From the IMG/VR virus record IMGVR_UViG_3300000101_000184, positions 1-20,679 of that record: a DNA stretch of 20,679 nucleotides. One strand, written 5' to 3'. Below the pieces are notes generated by a model. The model worked only from the letters and a program-made list of their open reading frames with translations. It made no database searches and was not told the DNA's origin. Source of the stretch: a virus. Shown in pieces: positions 9,622 to 16,550 of this stretch; the first letter of the stretch is position 1, and the number at the start of each line of letters is the position of its first letter. A program made the translations under genes and the position numbers.

Positions 9622-11211
9622 TTAATAGCCAAATACACTATCTGCTACCTGCATACTAGATTTATTTAGTGTAGATGAATCCCCGAAGTCAAATATGTTA
9701 AATCGTGGTCTAGACATAATACCATACCTTAAAGCATCATACAAGTGGTCTTCTGATGTAGTATCAATATCTTCAGGATTTTTCTTGTCTATTGGTAGTG
9801 CGGGTAGTTGTGATATTGTATTAGTGCAAGTATTAAAAAATACTAGTCGAGGTTCGTTTGTAAACTCGTCTACCTGCAAGCGTCTATGTATTTCGTTTTT
9901 ACCCGATACCCTAGATCCCCTAGATCTATCAGACGGCCTAAACCTGCATCCCTTCATAATCATCTGTTCCGCCAGACTAGGGCCAGTATCACCACGTTTG
10001 TGCCACAAAGAAGAGTCGAGAACTCCGTACTTAATATTTCCATCTGAAGCTTCTGCCTCTAATATCATATCAGCTAAATCTGCAGCAAGAACCTTACCTA
10101 CATAAAGCTCTCTATATACAACTAGTTGTTCACTTGGAGTAACAGCAAACCAAATAACGCCTGACTTACTTCCGTACCCATAGTCACATGCCCTAAATTT
10201 AATCCAGTTATTCGGAATATCAAACGGCTCTACTACATGAATGTTTCTATCAAACTCAGTAAAGGCTGCACCTTCTTTAATATCCCAATCACCGTCTAGT
10301 AACTGCCTACGTTGTTGCTCTGGAAGTGACAACAACATTGCTTCGTAGTCACCTTGTTCTGCTAAATAAGGATTGTCTGAAAGCCGTGCAGGTATAAACC
10401 TACGTTTAAATAATGATGTGCCTGCCTTGGCATGTCCTGCAGGATACCGTAAAACTTCTCCAGTTTCAATATCAGTAGCATCAAAACTTTTTCCTGTTGA
10501 TGAAGGGTCAATAAACATTTTCTTAACCCAATGATGACCTCTTCCTCCTGGGTTAGTAGTTGCTCTCATGTATACAGGTAGATCACTTGCTGTAGATCTC
10601 AAGCGACTTCGCATATAGTTCCATGCAAAAGGAGTAGGCCATTGAGTAAGTTCGTCGAAGCCAATCCAACTAAATGCTAAACCTTGATAGCGTAGTGCAT
10701 CATCTTCTCTATCAAGGTAAGACATCCAGAGCCTAGCACCAGAGGGTGCAGTCCATTGCATCTTTCGTTCTGACCATTTAATTCCAGGCCAGATCTTAGG
10801 GTACATTTCTTGTGACTTAAATACAAGTTCCCTTAGTTCTTCTGTGGTATGGCGTAGGAGCAATCCTGAGAAGGCTGGGTGGCCCATAAAGCGTAAAGGG
10901 TCAGCTAACATAGCGTAGCTCTTTCCACCCCCTGCAGAGCCTCCGTATAGCACCTCACGCTCACTTGCCGCAAGGAACTCAGTCTGAGGCCCATCGTTAG
11001 GTTTAAATATAATATTATGCTGCTCTTCTATAGGAGCTAAGTCATATATTATATTTGCAGGTTCAGGCTGCGCTGTTTTCTTGCGAGACTTTGTTTTGGG
11101 AGGTTGCTCCGATGCGGCTGTTTTCGATTTCTTCCGCTTTGGCGATTGCCTTTTTCGCATAGTCTGCCCATCTGCGTAGGCTTCCAGCTTTGTTTTTTCT
11201 TCTTCGTTCAT
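9622..11211 (-). CDS. terL: Large terminase subunit (packaging ATPase-nuclease)
   Basis: All expected motifs are present in the 529 residues. The ATPase has Walker A GGSAGGGKS (90-98), Walker B WIGFDE with D186-E187, and coupling motif RATTNPGG (216-223). The RNase H-like nuclease has candidate metal ligands D343 (CDYGYG), D399 (GVLDSS) and D488 or D492 (SEDHLYDALRYG). It would translocate DNA into the prohead and cut the concatemer. The first 50 residues are Lys/Arg/Ser-rich and probably disordered. The ATG at 11211 and a second at 11160 are the only usable starts before Walker A, so the gene must overlap the upstream HTH gene: 149 nt with the first start, about 98 nt with the second. Motifs and length fit the Terminase_6 group. 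Confidence 0.95.
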   Translation of the reverse strand: MNEEEKTKLEAYADGQTMRKRQSPKRKKSKTAASEQPPKTKSRKKTAQPEPANIIYDLAPIEEQHNIIFKPNDGPQTEFLAASEREVLYGGSAGGGKSYAMLADPLRFMGHPAFSGLLLRHTTEELRELVFKSQEMYPKIWPGIKWSERKMQWTAPSGARLWMSYLDREDDALRYQGLAFSWIGFDELTQWPTPFAWNYMRSRLRSTASDLPVYMRATTNPGGRGHHWVKKMFIDPSSTGKSFDATDIETGEVLRYPAGHAKAGTSLFKRRFIPARLSDNPYLAEQGDYEAMLLSLPEQQRRQLLDGDWDIKEGAAFTEFDRNIHVVEPFDIPNNWIKFRACDYGYGSKSGVIWFAVTPSEQLVVYRELYVGKVLAADLADMILEAEASDGNIKYGVLDSSLWHKRGDTGPSLAEQMIMKGCRFRPSDRSRGSRVSGKNEIHRRLQVDEFTNEPRLVFFNTCTNTISQLPALPIDKKNPEDIDTTSEDHLYDALRYGIMSRPRFNIFDFGDSSTLNKSSMQVADSVFGY

Positions 11212-11491
11212 TATCCAACCGTTTCTTTAGTCCTACGTGGGAAATAGATCTGCCCGTGTTTCGTGTAAGCCAATTGGCTACTTCACGATAGGAGTACTGT
11301 TTTATGTACTTCTTGGCTTCCATAAGCATATCAAGTTCTAATTGAATTGGCAAGAGTATTCCATTATCTTTTGGATCTATTTTATACCCAAAGGGTACAG
11401 TTCTTGCTACACGTGGAATTGGAACCCATTCATTTTCTTCTTGTAGGTCTGTTGGTTGTGGTAGTTTCCATTGTCCTAATGGTTTAGTCAT
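11063..11491 (-). CDS. HTH protein, probable packaging partner (142 aa)
   Basis: The N-terminal part reads EWVPIPRVARTVPFGYKIDP, then a helical segment (LELDMLMEAKKYIKQ) leads into a helix-turn-helix (about 66-93, YSYREVANWLTRNTGRSISHVGLKKRL). A very basic tail follows. I know this architecture from genes directly before the large terminase in marine phages, where it is usually taken as a small terminase-type DNA-binding protein. Recognition of the packaging start site is therefore likely but not proven. Its start overlaps the preceding gene by 8 nt (ATGACTAA). Its last 49 codons or so lie inside the large terminase gene in another frame, an unusually long overlap. Either this protein or the preceding 124-aa protein could be the true small subunit. 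Confidence 0.7.
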   Translation of the reverse strand: MTKPLGQWKLPQPTDLQEENEWVPIPRVARTVPFGYKIDPKDNGILLPIQLELDMLMEAKKYIKQYSYREVANWLTRNTGRSISHVGLKKRLDNERRRKNKAGSLRRWADYAKKAIAKAEEIENSRIGATSQNKVSQENSAA

Positions 11492-11858
11492 CTTCTTCCT
11501 GTGCTTGTTTAGCTGGCATAAGCATTACACCGCCCTTAGCTTCTACCTGCATCTTCTCTGTTTTAACAAGACCAGTACGATCTAACAGTTCTTTTGCTGC
11601 AGCCATCTTATCACGAATACCTAATTCAGTAGGATCATACAAAGCACTTACCATAGCCATAGCAGCTTTAGGTACGTTACGTGCTAGGTAACTGTGTGTC
11701 ACATCAATAATCTCTTCTTTAAGACTATTAGTTATTTCTGTATTAGTTGTGTTAGGTGAATATCCAGCAAGCTTTTTAGCGGTGGTAATATCTCCACCTG
11801 CTTCATCCATAAGTACATCTAAAAACTTTTGTTGGCGTTCTGTTAATTCACGAGCCAT
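11484..11858 (-). CDS. Small terminase subunit candidate (124 aa)
   Basis: The N-terminus ELTERQQKFLDVLMDEAGGD, followed by TTAKKLAGYSP, resembles the DNA-binding start of Terminase_2-type small subunits, in which a short helical domain binds the packaging site. A helical middle (NVPKAAMAMVSALYDPTELGIRDKM) could form the oligomerisation ring. The C-terminus (KTEKMQVEAKGGVMLMPAK) is the kind of short strand that contacts a partner. The gene lies two before the large terminase and overlaps the HTH gene by 8 nt, so these three should be made together. An AAGGA ribosome site lies about 8 nt before the ATG. The small-subunit call is by resemblance; no motif here is unique to it. Confidence 0.65.
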   Translation of the reverse strand: MARELTERQQKFLDVLMDEAGGDITTAKKLAGYSPNTTNTEITNSLKEEIIDVTHSYLARNVPKAAMAMVSALYDPTELGIRDKMAAAKELLDRTGLVKTEKMQVEAKGGVMLMPAKQAQEEDD

Positions 11859-11867
11859 AATTATTCC

Positions 11868-12320
11868 TTACATCAACTCAAAGTGAGGACCGTCAATAAA
11901 AGGTCTACGGCCTTGTGACCTACGCAAATCTACGTATGCCATCATTGCATCTTCCGCTGTACCTTCGTATGTACGGATGTCACCCTCTGACCAAGCTGCA
12001 CCCCACTTGATTGCTACACCAAGTTCCTTAGCTGCCTCTTTCATTGCGTCACAGAGATCGTCATAAACATTCAGTTCCCAACAACCCTTACCATCTACAT
12101 AAGCCATGAGATCTACTGCACGACCTTCAAGATGTTTTGATTTCATAGTCTGAGATTTACCTGCAGCCACAAGTTTCTTTTGTTCGTCTACAGTACGGAG
12201 GCCGTAGATAACACCAAAGTCTACTTTAGTTAATTCAATAGCACGTTTAACTACAGCTACTAAGTTATCGTCTACGCCTTCCATTTTTCCAAGGCTACGG
12301 TTTGATAATTTAAAAGTCAT
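11868..12320 (-). CDS. M15-family peptidase endolysin
   Basis: The 150-residue protein carries the M15 metal site pattern SKHLEGRAVDL (H63 and D70) and the C-terminal DGPHFEL (H146), with YGLRTVDEQ around R42 before them. This matches single-domain L-alanyl-D-glutamate/VanY-type peptidases (Peptidase_M15_4). It would cut peptide bonds in peptidoglycan at the end of infection. No signal peptide is present, so a holin would be needed for export; two membrane proteins lie just upstream in the operon. There is no cell-wall-binding domain, as is usual for phages of Gram-negative hosts. The start overlaps the preceding stop by 4 nt (ATGA), with GAGG upstream. Confidence 0.87.
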   Translation of the reverse strand: MTFKLSNRSLGKMEGVDDNLVAVVKRAIELTKVDFGVIYGLRTVDEQKKLVAAGKSQTMKSKHLEGRAVDLMAYVDGKGCWELNVYDDLCDAMKEAAKELGVAIKWGAAWSEGDIRTYEGTAEDAMMAYVDLRRSQGRRPFIDGPHFELM

Positions 12321-12763
12321 TTTACTGGCCTCGCTTTAGGACGTGGTGATTTTTTAGGAGCTTGCGCAGTCGGCTTAGATTTTTGTTCTTCCAGCATAAC
12401 TTTAGCTAATGTTTTTTCAATAGCTGTTTGCAGCTTAGCACGTTCCATTTCGGTCTTTGCTGTTTTTAATTTAGCGCGCATATCTTTGACTTTATTTTTC
12501 ATAGCTACTGCACCACCAATAGCACCTGCAGTAGCACCCACACCTGCAGCTACGCGAGTACCTGAGCGATAAGCACGTTGACCTTTTGTAGCGGCCTTAA
12601 CTTGAATTTGGCCTGCTTTAGGTTTAGTAACTATATCCTGAGCGTGTTTCTTTCCTTCAGAAAGGGCTTTCTTAGTATACTTCTTTGCCGCAGCCCGTAA
12701 GCCATATTTTGCAATGTACCTTGCGACTACTGCCGCTCCTGCTGCGATTAATGGTAATGGCAT
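12317..12763 (-). CDS. Basic membrane-associated protein in the lysis group (148 aa)
   Basis: The start MPLPLIAAGAAVVARYIAKYG is hydrophobic and then basic. A Gly/Ala-rich stretch (about 67-87, RVAAGVGATAGAIGGAVAMK) could span a membrane. It is followed by a heptad-like charged helix (MRAKLKTAKTEMERAKLQTA) and a Lys/Pro tail. I do not recognise a family. Its place between a holin-like protein and the M15 peptidase suggests a lysis or envelope role, for example an inner spanin, but the long N-terminal part is atypical for a spanin. An internal virion protein is an alternative. The ATG at 12763 is preferred because GGGGGAAAG lies upstream; a longer frame from 12808 would overlap the previous gene heavily. 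Confidence 0.6.
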   Translation of the reverse strand: MPLPLIAAGAAVVARYIAKYGLRAAAKKYTKKALSEGKKHAQDIVTKPKAGQIQVKAATKGQRAYRSGTRVAAGVGATAGAIGGAVAMKNKVKDMRAKLKTAKTEMERAKLQTAIEKTLAKVMLEEQKSKPTAQAPKKSPRPKARPVK

Positions 12764-12764
12764 T

Positions 12765-13154
12765 TTATTTCTTTCCCCCAAAAAACTTAGTGGCTGAACG
12801 TACACCAAAGGACGCAGCCACGATTACTCCTAATGTATAACTGTACCATTGCGGCATAGTATCTAATGCGACAAATCCATTTTGCACAACCTGCCTCCCC
12901 CACTCTCCAGTAAATACTAGAATTAAAGGGATCGAAAATAAAATAGTTAGCCACTCGTCCTTCCAAGAAGCTTGGCTACCTTGAGCCATAATCTTTTCCC
13001 AATCTGCTTCACTCGTTGCACGACTGACCATAATCTTTGCTTCAGCTTCAGATTTGGCAACCTTAGCTTTAGTTTCGGCAGCTTTAGTTTCAACTTTACC
13101 ATTTAACCATGTTCCTGCTAAATTAGCGATAGGTCCAATAAGAGCTTGTATCAT
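12765..13154 (-). CDS. Holin-like membrane protein (129 aa)
   Basis: An amphipathic N-terminus (MIQALIGPIANLAGTWLNGK) and a charged helical region (about 20-60) precede two predicted membrane segments, about 69-83 (LTILFSIPLILVFTG) and about 103-118 (WYSYTLGVIVAASFGV). The C-terminus is KFFGGKK. The order (short amphipathic start, cytoplasmic helix, WKDEW before the membrane segment, basic end) resembles Holin_3TMs-type proteins. It would form lesions in the inner membrane that let the downstream endolysin reach the wall. The start overlaps the preceding stop by 4 nt (ATGA) and has AAGGAT 6 nt upstream. The holin call rests on topology and context. Confidence 0.65.
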   Translation of the reverse strand: MIQALIGPIANLAGTWLNGKVETKAAETKAKVAKSEAEAKIMVSRATSEADWEKIMAQGSQASWKDEWLTILFSIPLILVFTGEWGRQVVQNGFVALDTMPQWYSYTLGVIVAASFGVRSATKFFGGKK

Positions 13155-13405
13155 CTGGAATCCTTATCTACATATACTTCTTTAGGTGCGGGGGGAGTAC
13201 TTCTATCTGTCTTAGCTTCCTTATTCATCCAGATACCAAAACAACCAGTGAGTGCTCCCATACAAACTGACACTAACCCTGCTTGTCCGTTAGTAGGATC
13301 AGGTAATGCCATATACCAATGCACAGATTGATACGTTAATACAGTCACAACTAACATCATAATACGTGGAAATAATTTATAGTCATCAATAATAGTATGT
13401 GCCAT
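13151..13405 (-). CDS. Small two-span membrane protein (84 aa)
   Basis: Two hydrophobic segments are visible: about 12-30 (FPRIMMLVVTVLTYQSVHW) and about 42-60 (AGLVSVCMGALTGCFGIWM), joined by a short Pro/Asp loop. A charged Pro/Lys/Asp tail follows. This fits a small holin or antiholin that pairs with the next gene, and I recall similar proteins in marine phages. No experimental role is known to me. Two adjacent ATGs exist; the second (13405) lies 6 nt after GAAGGGG and is preferred, while the first (13408) overlaps the preceding stop as TAATG. Confidence 0.6.
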   Translation of the reverse strand: MAHTIIDDYKLFPRIMMLVVTVLTYQSVHWYMALPDPTNGQAGLVSVCMGALTGCFGIWMNKEAKTDRSTPPAPKEVYVDKDSR

Positions 13406-13407
13406 CA

Positions 13408-13653
13408 TTATCCCCTTCTGTATCTAGCGGTTTTCTTTGCAACGCCTTTAGGTTGAGCCACATGCTGCTTACCTGCCTTCGTGCCTTTTCGTTTAGCTCT
13501 GGTTGTAGCGGCATACTCATTGCTGCTAAGAGACTCAATAGCCTTAGCAGGTAAATAGCGCTCACCAGTTTTAGCACTAGGCTTTCCACTTTTAGTTCGC
13601 CAATCTTGCTTAGTCCATTTTTTTAAAGACTTTTGTGAATTAGCGAGGGTCAT
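13408..13653 (-). CDS. Basic WTKQDW/TGERYLP-motif protein (81 aa)
   Basis: The protein is strongly basic, with SLKKWTKQDWRTKSGKPS, then TGERYLPAKAIESLSSNEYA, then a Lys/Arg-rich C-terminus. I recognise these motifs from small uncharacterised proteins of marine viruses. In some of them I recall this block following a GQWSARKAQLL block in one polypeptide; here the two blocks are separate genes joined at TAATG. The charge suggests nucleic-acid binding, possibly packaged with DNA, but no function is established. GGGGG lies about 9 nt before the start, and the next gene starts at the stop. The shared-origin idea with the preceding gene is from memory. Confidence 0.65.
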   Translation of the reverse strand: MTLANSQKSLKKWTKQDWRTKSGKPSAKTGERYLPAKAIESLSSNEYAATTRAKRKGTKAGKQHVAQPKGVAKKTARYRRG

Positions 13654-13838
13654 TATTTATAACCCCCGCCAGCTTTTTTGTATTCGGCTGCGAGAAGCTG
13701 TGCCTTACGCGCAGACCATTGACCCGCCTTCCCGCCTTTGGTTCCCCGCTTAATCCGCTCAAACAAACGTTTGCGCATAGTAGGCTTAGTATAATTTCCT
13801 GCCTCATTAACCTTGGATCTTGGTTTTGATTTCGCCAC
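13653..13838 (-). CDS. Basic GQWSARKAQLL-motif protein (61 aa)
   Basis: The product reads NYTKPTMRKRLFERIKRG, then TKGGKAGQWSARKAQLLAAEYKKAGGGYK. I recognise this block from small Lys/Arg-rich proteins of marine phages and from proteins of some large eukaryotic viruses; no activity is known to me. The start must be the GTG at 13838 or an ATG inside, because a TAG stops the frame four codons upstream. The first 32 nt lie inside the DUF1127 gene in another frame. The stop overlaps the next start as TAATG, which suggests that ribosomes reinitiate. Net charge and size suggest a nucleic-acid-binding protein. Confidence 0.65.
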   Translation of the reverse strand: MAKSKPRSKVNEAGNYTKPTMRKRLFERIKRGTKGGKAGQWSARKAQLLAAEYKKAGGGYK

Positions 13839-13947
13839 GAGTAATACCTATATCTTTTAACTCTTTGTCCGTCATATTGCTCAAGATCCAATAGTCGGCT
13901 CTGCGTTGTTGGTTGGTCTGTAGATTTCGTAAAAAACGTTTAAACAT
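13807..13947 (-). CDS. DUF1127-family small basic protein (46 aa)
   Basis: The ATG at 13947 opens a 46-residue frame ending in TAA at 13807. It begins MFKRFLRNLQ. Its C-terminal half, ILSNMTDKELKDIGITRGEI, matches the DUF1127 signature of a W or L position, then L-S-x-M-[ST]-D-x-E-L-x-D-I-G-[IL]-x-R-x-[ED]-I. An ideal AGGAG ribosome site lies 9 nt before the ATG, and a -10 element and hairpin lie before that, so this looks like the first gene of a transcript. DUF1127 proteins are small Arg-rich proteins abundant in Alphaproteobacteria. One of them, CcaF1 of Rhodobacter sphaeroides, binds RNA and affects sRNA maturation and RNA turnover. A phage copy could act on host or phage RNA; that role is inference. 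Confidence 0.85.
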   Translation of the reverse strand: MFKRFLRNLQTNQQRRADYWILSNMTDKELKDIGITRGEIKTKIQG

Positions 13948-13968
13948 ATTCTATCTCCTATTATGTTT

Positions 13969-13987
13969 AGGTAAGCAATACTTACCT
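13969..13987 (-). other. 5'-end hairpin of the DUF1127 transcript
   Basis: AGGTAAG and CTTACCT form a perfect 7-bp stem around the 5-nt loop TATTG. The stem begins about 4 nt after the predicted transcription start (about 13991) and ends 21 nt before the DUF1127 ATG, leaving the AGGAG site free. The placement parallels the hairpin in the capsid leader. Confidence 0.5.
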
Positions 13988-13997
13988 TACAGAGATA

Positions 13998-14005
13998 GTT
14001 ATATC
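13998..14005 (-). promoter_or_regulatory. Predicted extended -10 promoter before the DUF1127 gene
   Basis: Minus strand TGATATAAC is an extended -10 (TG-A-TATAAC). The core ATGATATAACTAT is identical to that before the capsid gene. No good -35 hexamer is found at 16-18 nt, so activity may rely on the extended -10 or an activator. It sits in the 107-nt gap after the beta-rich 124-aa gene, one of few real gaps in the block. Confidence 0.5.
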
Positions 14006-14054
14006 ATAGTTAGTTATACCACACTACAGACAATAGCGCAACCCCGTTATGCAA

Positions 14055-15538: not shown

Positions 15539-15609
15539 TGTCAACCCTAATATACAAAAAACTTCTCGCTTACGCGACTTAACACGTATATGTCTATACA
15601 AATACCTAC

Positions 15610-15818
15610 ACTGTACGTGTATACTTATATGATATATACTTATATGTAATTATAATATAGTAAATGTAGTACTTATAGTATGTACTGTACGTGTATCACT
15701 TAAGTGACCCAACCCAAATTCTATTATATATAGTTTTACACATTAAATATAGCATGTCAATCCCTATAATGCATACTGTAACATAACGTGACACCTTGTA
15801 ACGTAGCGTGATACACTT
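15610..15818. repeat. Iteron-like repeats
   Basis: ACTGTACGTGTATACTTA (15610-15627) and ACTGTACGTGTATCACTTA (15684-15702) differ by one inserted base. Near the right end, GTAACATAACGTGACACCTT (15778-15797) is followed directly by GTAACGTAGCGTGATACACTT (15798-15818), an imperfect tandem pair that shares the GTGATACACTT-like end. ATACTTATATG also occurs twice (15621-15631, 15637-15647). Such short related repeats in AT-rich DNA resemble initiator-binding iterons. Confidence 0.5.
15696..15707. promoter_or_regulatory. 12-bp perfect palindrome TCACTTAAGTGA
   Basis: TCACTTAAGTGA is its own reverse complement and overlaps the end of the second iteron-like repeat. It is operator-like in size and could be a half of an initiator or repressor site. 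Confidence 0.4.
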
Positions 15819-15943
15819 ATTCTGTAATATATAGCCAGTTTAGACACCCATTTAGTACCAGCTTGTGTGTTAATCACCATGTATGTAAAGTGGTTTACAC
15901 CCCATTTTACTGATCTGTGTAGATATTCATGCATATATACGCA

Positions 15944-15974
15944 CCCACCCCCCGTGGCCCCTGCCCGTCCCCCC
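15944..15974 (-). other. Potential G-quadruplex tract
   Basis: On the minus strand five G-runs follow each other: G6-AC-G3-CA-G4-CCAC-G6-T-G3. All loops are 1-4 nt, which meets the usual G3+N1-7 rule for an intramolecular G-quadruplex. The surrounding hundred or so bases on the left are AT-rich, so this is a sharp local change in composition and strand skew. Confidence 0.6.
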
Positions 15975-16051
15975 TCACTGCGCGTGATGTGCGCCCATAA
16001 TGCACCTATATGACCTGCGGTGAAGGCAAATGCTGTGCCTCATTCCACCAT

Positions 16052-16297
16052 TACATCATAGATGTACATAGTTTCAGTAGGTTACTTGTCTACGACAACT
16101 GTTATGCAATCAGTTGCCACCACTTGTGGTGATAAGATGGGCTAAGTTGTCACATCAGAGATGTGTTGCAGCGACGATGCACATAATTACCCTACCCACC
16201 ACCTTCAGTGGTCAGATGTATGATCATACGAGCCGTGCGCCGCTCTGCCAATGGCTCACTGACCGTCCAACATTGGACACTTTACATCTAAAGATGT
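16052..16297. repeat. Cluster of short inverted repeats
   Basis: Seven short inverted repeats lie within about 250 nt: TACATC-ATA-GATGTA (16052-16066), CAACTG-9 nt-CAGTTG (16096-16116), CACCAC-TT-GTGGTG (16118-16131), CACATC-AGA-GATGTG (16151-16165), ACCAC-CTTCA-GTGGT (16198-16212), GTATGATCATAC (16218-16229) and ACATC-TAAA-GATGT (16284-16297). The ACATC/GATGT pair occurs three times and the ACCAC/GTGGT pair twice, so they are families rather than unrelated palindromes. Confidence 0.6.
16265..16278. repeat. GTCCAA-TG-TTGGAC palindrome, copy 1
   Basis: GTCCAACATTGGAC, the reverse-orientation form with CA centre, followed by ACTTTA. It lies in the noncoding control region about 170 nt before the first rightward promoter. 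Confidence 0.7.
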
Positions 16298-16366
16298 GTC
16301 TTTGATGCAACACAATTGATGTCCTACCACAATCTGAGCCTCATACGAGTTTAGCGCAGGTACTTC

Positions 16367-16384
16367 GTAATTACTTGTAATTAC
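16367..16384. promoter_or_regulatory. Tandem GTAATTAC palindromes, probable operator
   Basis: GTAATTAC-TT-GTAATTAC: two copies of a perfect 8-bp palindrome, repeated every 10 bp, so both face the same side of the helix. They lie about 50 bp upstream of the -35 of the first rightward promoter, a normal place for an activator or repressor. Confidence 0.55.
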
Positions 16385-16436
16385 TGCAGTGGCGCGTGAA
16401 ACGGCAGGCGCAGAGGATCGCGCTATGAGAACCGAC

Positions 16437-16467
16437 TTGACAAACTTATACTATCTTCTTACATAAT
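16437..16467 (+). promoter_or_regulatory. Predicted promoter for the rightward genes
   Basis: Consensus TTGACA (16437-16442) and CATAAT (16462-16467, five of six bases matching TATAAT) are separated by 19 nt, slightly longer than ideal. The predicted transcription start is near 16474, about 77 nt before the first ATG. The -10 lies inside the left arm of the long hairpin. Confidence 0.55.
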
Positions 16468-16534
16468 TAATGATAGAACTATATCTCACTTCTTGTGAGA
16501 GATATAGGTTCTCTCATATAATTATAGAAGATAG
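16451..16534 (+). other. 84-nt imperfect hairpin before the first rightward gene
   Basis: CTATCTTCT (16451-16459) pairs with AGAAGATAG (16526-16534). ATAATTA (16463-16469) pairs with TAATTAT (16519-16525). ATGA and AGAAC (16470-16479) pair with 16508-16517, and TATATCTC (16480-16487) pairs with GAGATATA (16499-16506), with loop TTCTT. About 35 bp pair in total with a few bulges. The ribosome site AAGGA and the ATG at 16551 follow directly. With a start near 16474 only the inner half would be in the mRNA, at its 5' end. Confidence 0.65.
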
Positions 16535-16550
16535 ATAAAGGAACTGCCAA

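Follow-up and report, generated by a model that had tools for sequence, protein, structure and literature searches.

Proteins of the DUF1127 family are puzzling small regulators, reported as binders of RNA or of sensor kinases. The locus described here raises the question of whether a phage encodes a genuine member of this family and, if so, how the production of the protein is controlled and what it might do in the infected cell. The window, i.e. the whole stretch of DNA that was analysed, comprises 20,679 bases out of a 23,116-base IMG/VR record. It derives from an HMO-2011-type phage related to Roseobacter-infecting isolates; its packaging region is nearest to those of the HMO-2011-type phages CRP-345, CRP-1 and HMO-2011, and its portal and terminase genes are of the SU10 type. 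The DUF1127 gene, the lysis genes and the packaging genes all lie on the minus strand, with the DUF1127 gene preceding the rest:

13807..13947, minus strand: DUF1127 protein, 46 aa (Pfam PF06568, AlphaFold, conservation in relatives)
13653..13838, minus strand: basic protein of 61 aa, phrog_17747 (E=4.6e-34)
9622..13653, minus strand: basic protein, membrane and spanin-like proteins, M15-type endolysin, TerS and TerL, downstream of the DUF1127 gene

This order agrees with an earlier note on the same DNA, made from the sequence alone, which had placed the gene ahead of basic proteins, a lysis group and packaging genes. It also extends to the relatives: TerS, TerL, a lysin or a TerS-adjacent gene is found downstream on the same strand in 124 of the 127 that have at least 2.5 kb of sequence following DUF1127. 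Since the GTG start of the phrog_17747 gene falls within the DUF1127 gene, translational coupling of the two is possible.

The earlier note had described a 46-codon gene with a ribosome-binding site and assigned it to DUF1127 by the signature in its C-terminus. The ORF (13807-13947, minus strand; translation MFKRFLRNLQTNQQRRADYWILSNMTDKELKDIGITRGEIKTKIQG) indeed starts with an ATG at 13947-13945 and has the Shine-Dalgarno (SD) sequence AGGAG at 13959-13955, while a profile search matched its 46-aa product to Pfam PF06568 with an E-value of 1e-8 and 35.2 bits, against a gathering cut-off of 23.3. The ORF is thus a true DUF1127 protein. The L..(S/T)D.EL.DIG..R core of the family is present as LSNMTDKELKDIGITR; residues Q14, A17, L22, L30, D32, G34 and R37 are invariant across 41 phage DUF1127 sequences, and R15 and R16, located in an RRAD stretch, are retained by many relatives. 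With CcaF1, YjiS and the Agrobacterium SDPs the phage protein shares a basic domain of ∼50 aa carrying a DIG-(I/L)-R motif near the C-terminus; unlike them, it occurs in marine phages, at the head of lysis and packaging genes. The protein of the window is short, arginine-rich and basic (46 aa, 5 Arg, net charge of +5). Its AlphaFold model (mean pLDDT 83, pTM 0.49) contains three predicted helices (residues 2-23, 27-32 and 37-45). A fold search of the PDB with this model produced no significant match (best E=4.9), and a profile search of PDB sequences returned chance-level matches only. A likeness of the C-terminal half to SAM domains was considered and dropped, the matches to SAM_1 in Pfam (E=0.02) and to the tankyrase SAM domain (E=0.47) being below the cut-off.

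In order to get insight into the distribution of the gene, we searched for its homologues in phages and in their potential hosts. Relatives were retrieved by tblastn from 32 phage records, belonging to roseophages (of the CRP, SIO1, ICBM and P12053L types) and to the Methylophilales phages Melnitz, and pattern scans of IMG/VR with three query alignments yielded overlapping sets of 553, 392 and 381 confirmed stretches. To avoid selecting on DUF1127 itself, contigs were also drawn by their terminase. The gene was present in 36 of the 37 eligible contigs drawn with the TerL of the window and in 0 of 38 contigs drawn with the HMO-2011 TerL. It is thus conserved at this position, so that neither of the two outcomes which the earlier note had named as refuting (no significant DUF1127 profile hit, no related gene at this position in related phages) was observed. 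Among cultured phages, the Pfam model detected DUF1127 in all six HMO-2011-type roseophage isolates examined and did not detect it in HMO-2011 (SAR116 host) or in HTVC033P, HTVC115P and HTVC104P (SAR11 hosts). Therefore, DUF1127 tracks one phage clade and, among the isolates, also their hosts; as this is a single clade, host and ancestry are not separable. On the side of the hosts, the gene was found in 80 of 80 genomes sampled from the Shimia family and in 51 of the 142 that represented its class. A tree including host DUF1127 proteins, as proposed in the earlier note, placed the HMO-2011-type copies apart from the sampled host genes, although its 32 columns can neither prove one origin nor date a transfer; the phage label changes twice on this tree, which still allows for one origin.

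DUF1127 is already annotated in GenBank for CRP-603 and the Melnitz phages. Two unannotated DUF1127 ORFs were noticed, one in SIO1 (L011, 1492-1674), immediately preceding the gene for ribonucleotide reductase, the other in CRP-13 (L003, 3001-3165), immediately preceding TerS. In the open-access papers searched we found no discussion of DUF1127 as a phage gene, and no description of a function or a leader for the copies of CRP-603 and Melnitz.

The region preceding the gene contains the following elements, the promoter hexamers having been recognized by sequence:

14036..14041, minus strand: predicted −35-like hexamer TTGCGC of promoter P1
14013..14018, minus strand: predicted −10 of P1, TATAAC, extended (TGg), 17 nt from the −35
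13998..14003, minus strand: predicted −10 of P2, TATAAC, extended (TGa), abutting the anti-SD strand
13991..13998, minus strand: anti-SD strand CTATCTCT, 5' strand of a helix with 13951-13958 (covariation)
13969..13987, minus strand: inner hairpin AGGTAAG/CTTACCT, present in both folded RNAs
13951..13959, minus strand: SD AGGAG and 3' strand GGAGATAG of the helix (sequence, folding)

The earlier note had credited the gene with a promoter of its own and with a leader hairpin. A promoter-like sequence (TTGCGC, 17 nt, TGgTATAAC) is in place, the promoter as such being a prediction. The hairpin is also there, and the leader folds better than its shuffled versions (z=-3.1; equally good folding in 2 of 200 shuffles). 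That note had seen the inner hairpin only and missed an outer helix, in which CTATCTCT (13998-13991) pairs with GGAGATAG (13958-13951), SD included. The putative P2 begins 15 nt downstream of P1 (TGaTATAAC versus TGgTATAAC), and many relatives have TTGCAA or TTGCAT as the −35 of P1. A generic promoter scan listed neither P1 nor P2, because it demands a T at the last position of the −10.

To find out whether the outer helix is conserved, leaders of related genes were collected by a simple rule (the start codon with the best SD was taken, together with the nearest TATAAC, TATAAT or TAAAAC upstream of it), which left 45 leaders after dereplication. The mean helix score was 18.1, compared with 11.9 ± 0.8 when the 3' strands were swapped among the 45 leaders (z=7.9), and 0 of 20,000 permutations attained the observed value. 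Kinship makes the leaders less than fully independent of one another, but the swap control retains this kinship within columns. Each of the positions SD+4 to SD+7, located between the SD and the start codon, displays at least three standard pair types, and compensating strand pairs are found, for example, in L323 (TAGTCTCCAGTT/AACTGGAGACTA), L031 (ACTACTCCT/AGGAGTAGT) and L264 (TATATGTAC/GTACATATA). The helix is conserved through compensatory changes in the 45 dereplicated leaders. It merely borders the SD in the L313 and L316 groups, and the SD-masking arrangement is missing in L346.

Inverted repeats can bind dimers, and one arm of the repeat overlaps the promoter region, so that the element might be read as a DNA operator beside a promoter instead of an RNA structure. 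We consider this very improbable, because the distance between the −10 and the start codon varies from 26 to 58 nt among the leaders and the two arms change together; moreover, nearly every leader has its second arm at the SD or adjacent to it.

The arrangement was then sought at other genes using a pattern that consisted of a −10 with, immediately after it, a strand pairing with the SD. The 3.4 Mb of strand sequence contained 167 matches, of which 165 were at DUF1127 genes and 2 elsewhere; the shuffled control gave 2. Because the scanned loci had been chosen around DUF1127 or its neighbour, the scan was extended to three nearly whole roseophage genomes, and in these genomes and in the window the arrangement was found at no gene except DUF1127. 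The SD-masking arrangement is therefore essentially restricted to DUF1127 genes. This does not favour the suggestion of the earlier note that DUF1127 might recognize the 5' hairpins of several other leaders of the phage. An Rfam search with the window and five relatives returned no match at the gathering score.

A structured leader was also observed at the coat-protein gene; it is long (230-330 nt) and has a TTGACA promoter at its head. Only a few bases downstream of where this RNA is expected to begin, there is a strong hairpin (CCTGTGTGG/CCACACAGG in the window; 3966-3900, minus strand); its sequence varies among phages (also L357 at ∼39002, L358 at ∼39192 and L359 at ∼40420), and it does not cover the SD.

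The predicted pairing of the SD depends on where the RNA begins. Across 43 leaders it averaged 0.83 with the anti-SD strand present and 0.28 in RNA starting after that strand, compared with a mean of 0.46 for other genes of these phages (2.5% of which exceed 0.9); the leaders of host DUF1127 genes (n=21) were at this background, with a mean of 0.47. In the window, the SD is paired when the folded RNA starts upstream, whereas in the RNA that starts directly past P2 the inner hairpin still forms and the SD is free. In L229, L236 and L264 the SD is predicted to stay paired even in the P2 RNA.

An SD that is held in a helix in the longer RNAs is the hallmark of the T4 gene e type of control, to which the folding results for the window and the 43 leaders conform in silico. 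In T4, long early RNAs of gene e are folded and poorly translated, while the 5' strand of the helix is missing from the late RNAs that start locally (PMC3014915). As in gene e (and likewise soc, 49 and I-TevI), the 5' strand here is encoded beside a predicted local promoter, albeit in another phage group and for another product, with TATAAC in place of the T4 late promoter TATAAATA; the present case is predicted from sequence, on 45 dereplicated leaders with strong covariation. The genes upstream of DUF1127 are on the same strand. RNA entering from them, co-transcription being assumed, or RNA begun at P1 would carry the anti-SD strand and hide the SD. RNA begun at P2 would start ∼7 nt past the −10, close to the inner hairpin; at this usual distance it would lack the anti-SD strand and leave the SD open. 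Translation of DUF1127 would then be set by which promoter is active, similarly to T4 gene e, and, in what is the least certain step, the protein would tune a regulatory circuit of the host in which DUF1127 proteins take part. Folding of the leader back over the SD probably lets the phage time the production of DUF1127. To the more complete proposition, namely that a phage DUF1127 regulator heads the lysis and packaging genes and that its leader masks the SD in RNA begun upstream, we assign about an even chance.

Control through the leader has a precedent in the family itself: in S. meliloti the leader RNA of duf1127_1 governs expression by means of an upstream ORF and Rho-dependent attenuation (PMC12218461). 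The phage gene is likewise leader-controlled in our model, by direct pairing of the SD and without an upstream ORF; between the upstream gene and DUF1127 there is no translated uORF, ATG-ATA-TAA only.

TATAAC or TATAAT is found at the place of P2 in 41 of the 45 leaders, where it abuts the anti-SD strand, and TAAAAC in 4, counts that are to be read with the collecting rule in mind, since the rule itself searched for these three hexamers. P2 usually has no −35, and the TG extension is missing in 18 of the 39 TATAAC copies. A comparable P1 (at least 5/6 of the −10 and a fair −35) is present in 24 of 45 leaders, and in about half of them P1 is the better-looking sigma-70 promoter (TTGCAA/T, 17 nt, TGnTATAAC). 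As the RNA begun at P1 would contain the anti-SD strand and be masked, a serious rival to the choice of promoter is a mask present in every transcript and opened by a factor; candidates for this factor are DUF1127 itself, which would then be an autoregulator, an RNA-binding protein of host or phage origin, an RNase and temperature. L031, L098 and L318, which keep the helix and have TAAAAC as P2, are consistent with such a mask, as is the RNA binding of a DUF1127 protein, CcaF1 (PMC10253847). On the other hand, the opening factor is hypothetical, and P1 is not recognizable in about half of the leaders, in which the −10 beside the anti-SD strand persists. We regard the factor-opened mask as rather unlikely, and retain promoter-dependent masking as the working model.

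The protein probably adjusts host regulation via either PhoR or RNA, the two kinds of target reported for its cellular relatives. The SDPs of Agrobacterium and YjiS of E. coli bind the sensor kinase PhoR, and DUF1127 proteins of other species, CcaF1 included, can replace the SDPs, restoring the control of pstS in Agrobacterium (PMC12501420). We place PhoR first because this model has been demonstrated in more than one species and because phoH or a phosphate transporter is found in related phages (for the Na/Pi transporter, PMC9038755). A phage copy of a host DUF1127 protein is accordingly predicted to modulate PhoR and phosphate uptake, either shutting down the Pho regulon or acting as a competitor of the host DUF1127 so that the regulon opens. 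The presence of DUF1127 in every one of the sampled Shimia-family genomes suits this prediction, as does the basic character of the window's protein (net +5), a property that the PhoR model requires. Extra DUF1127 would, however, be expected to lower phosphate uptake, seemingly against the needs of a phage unless the protein acts as a competitor, and we hold the PhoR reading to be possible, a little short of an even chance.

The earlier note had suggested that the phage protein could reprogram RNA decay during infection; in this reading it is a CcaF1-like RNA-binding factor that alters RNA processing or decay. CcaF1, from the alphaproteobacterium R. sphaeroides and of the same family, is an RNA binder (PMC10253847), and the R15/R16 pair of the RRAD stretch is kept by many relatives. 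Against this stand the lack of evidence for RNA binding by Salmonella YjiS (PMC11707872), the fewer arginines in the shared core of the phage proteins than in that of the host proteins (5.1 versus 6.3), and the finding of no conserved RNA target beyond the leader of DUF1127 itself. This reading is doubtful, and a role of the phage DUF1127 in RNA decay is speculative.

The protein belongs to a known family, and its leader adds a new example to a kind of control that was already known. Taken together, we tentatively suggest, at clearly less than an even chance, that widespread marine roseophages have captured a host DUF1127 gene that re-sets phosphate or RNA control during infection, its timing being set by a new, covarying SD-masking leader peculiar to this gene; such a switch would resemble that of T4 gene e and would have arisen independently in another phage group. 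If true, the leader would carry the logic of T4 gene e over to abundant ocean phages. It is a compact, covariation-supported control element open to simple reporter tests, and the stripped-down phage copy of ∼46 aa, from a clade with roseobacter-infecting cultured members, offers a natural test of a minimal DUF1127.

Several other features of the locus were observed. Relatives of phrog_17747 occur without a DUF1127 gene found nearby in 75 of 80 viral loci. The endolysin (11868-12320) matches the peptidase M15 family, and HMO-2011 has a PF00959 lysozyme at the same place, an instance of lysis gene exchange. Finally, ∼1 kb with few credible genes (15600-16550) separates divergent gene blocks and contains recurring TATAAGTA words as well as short inverted repeats.
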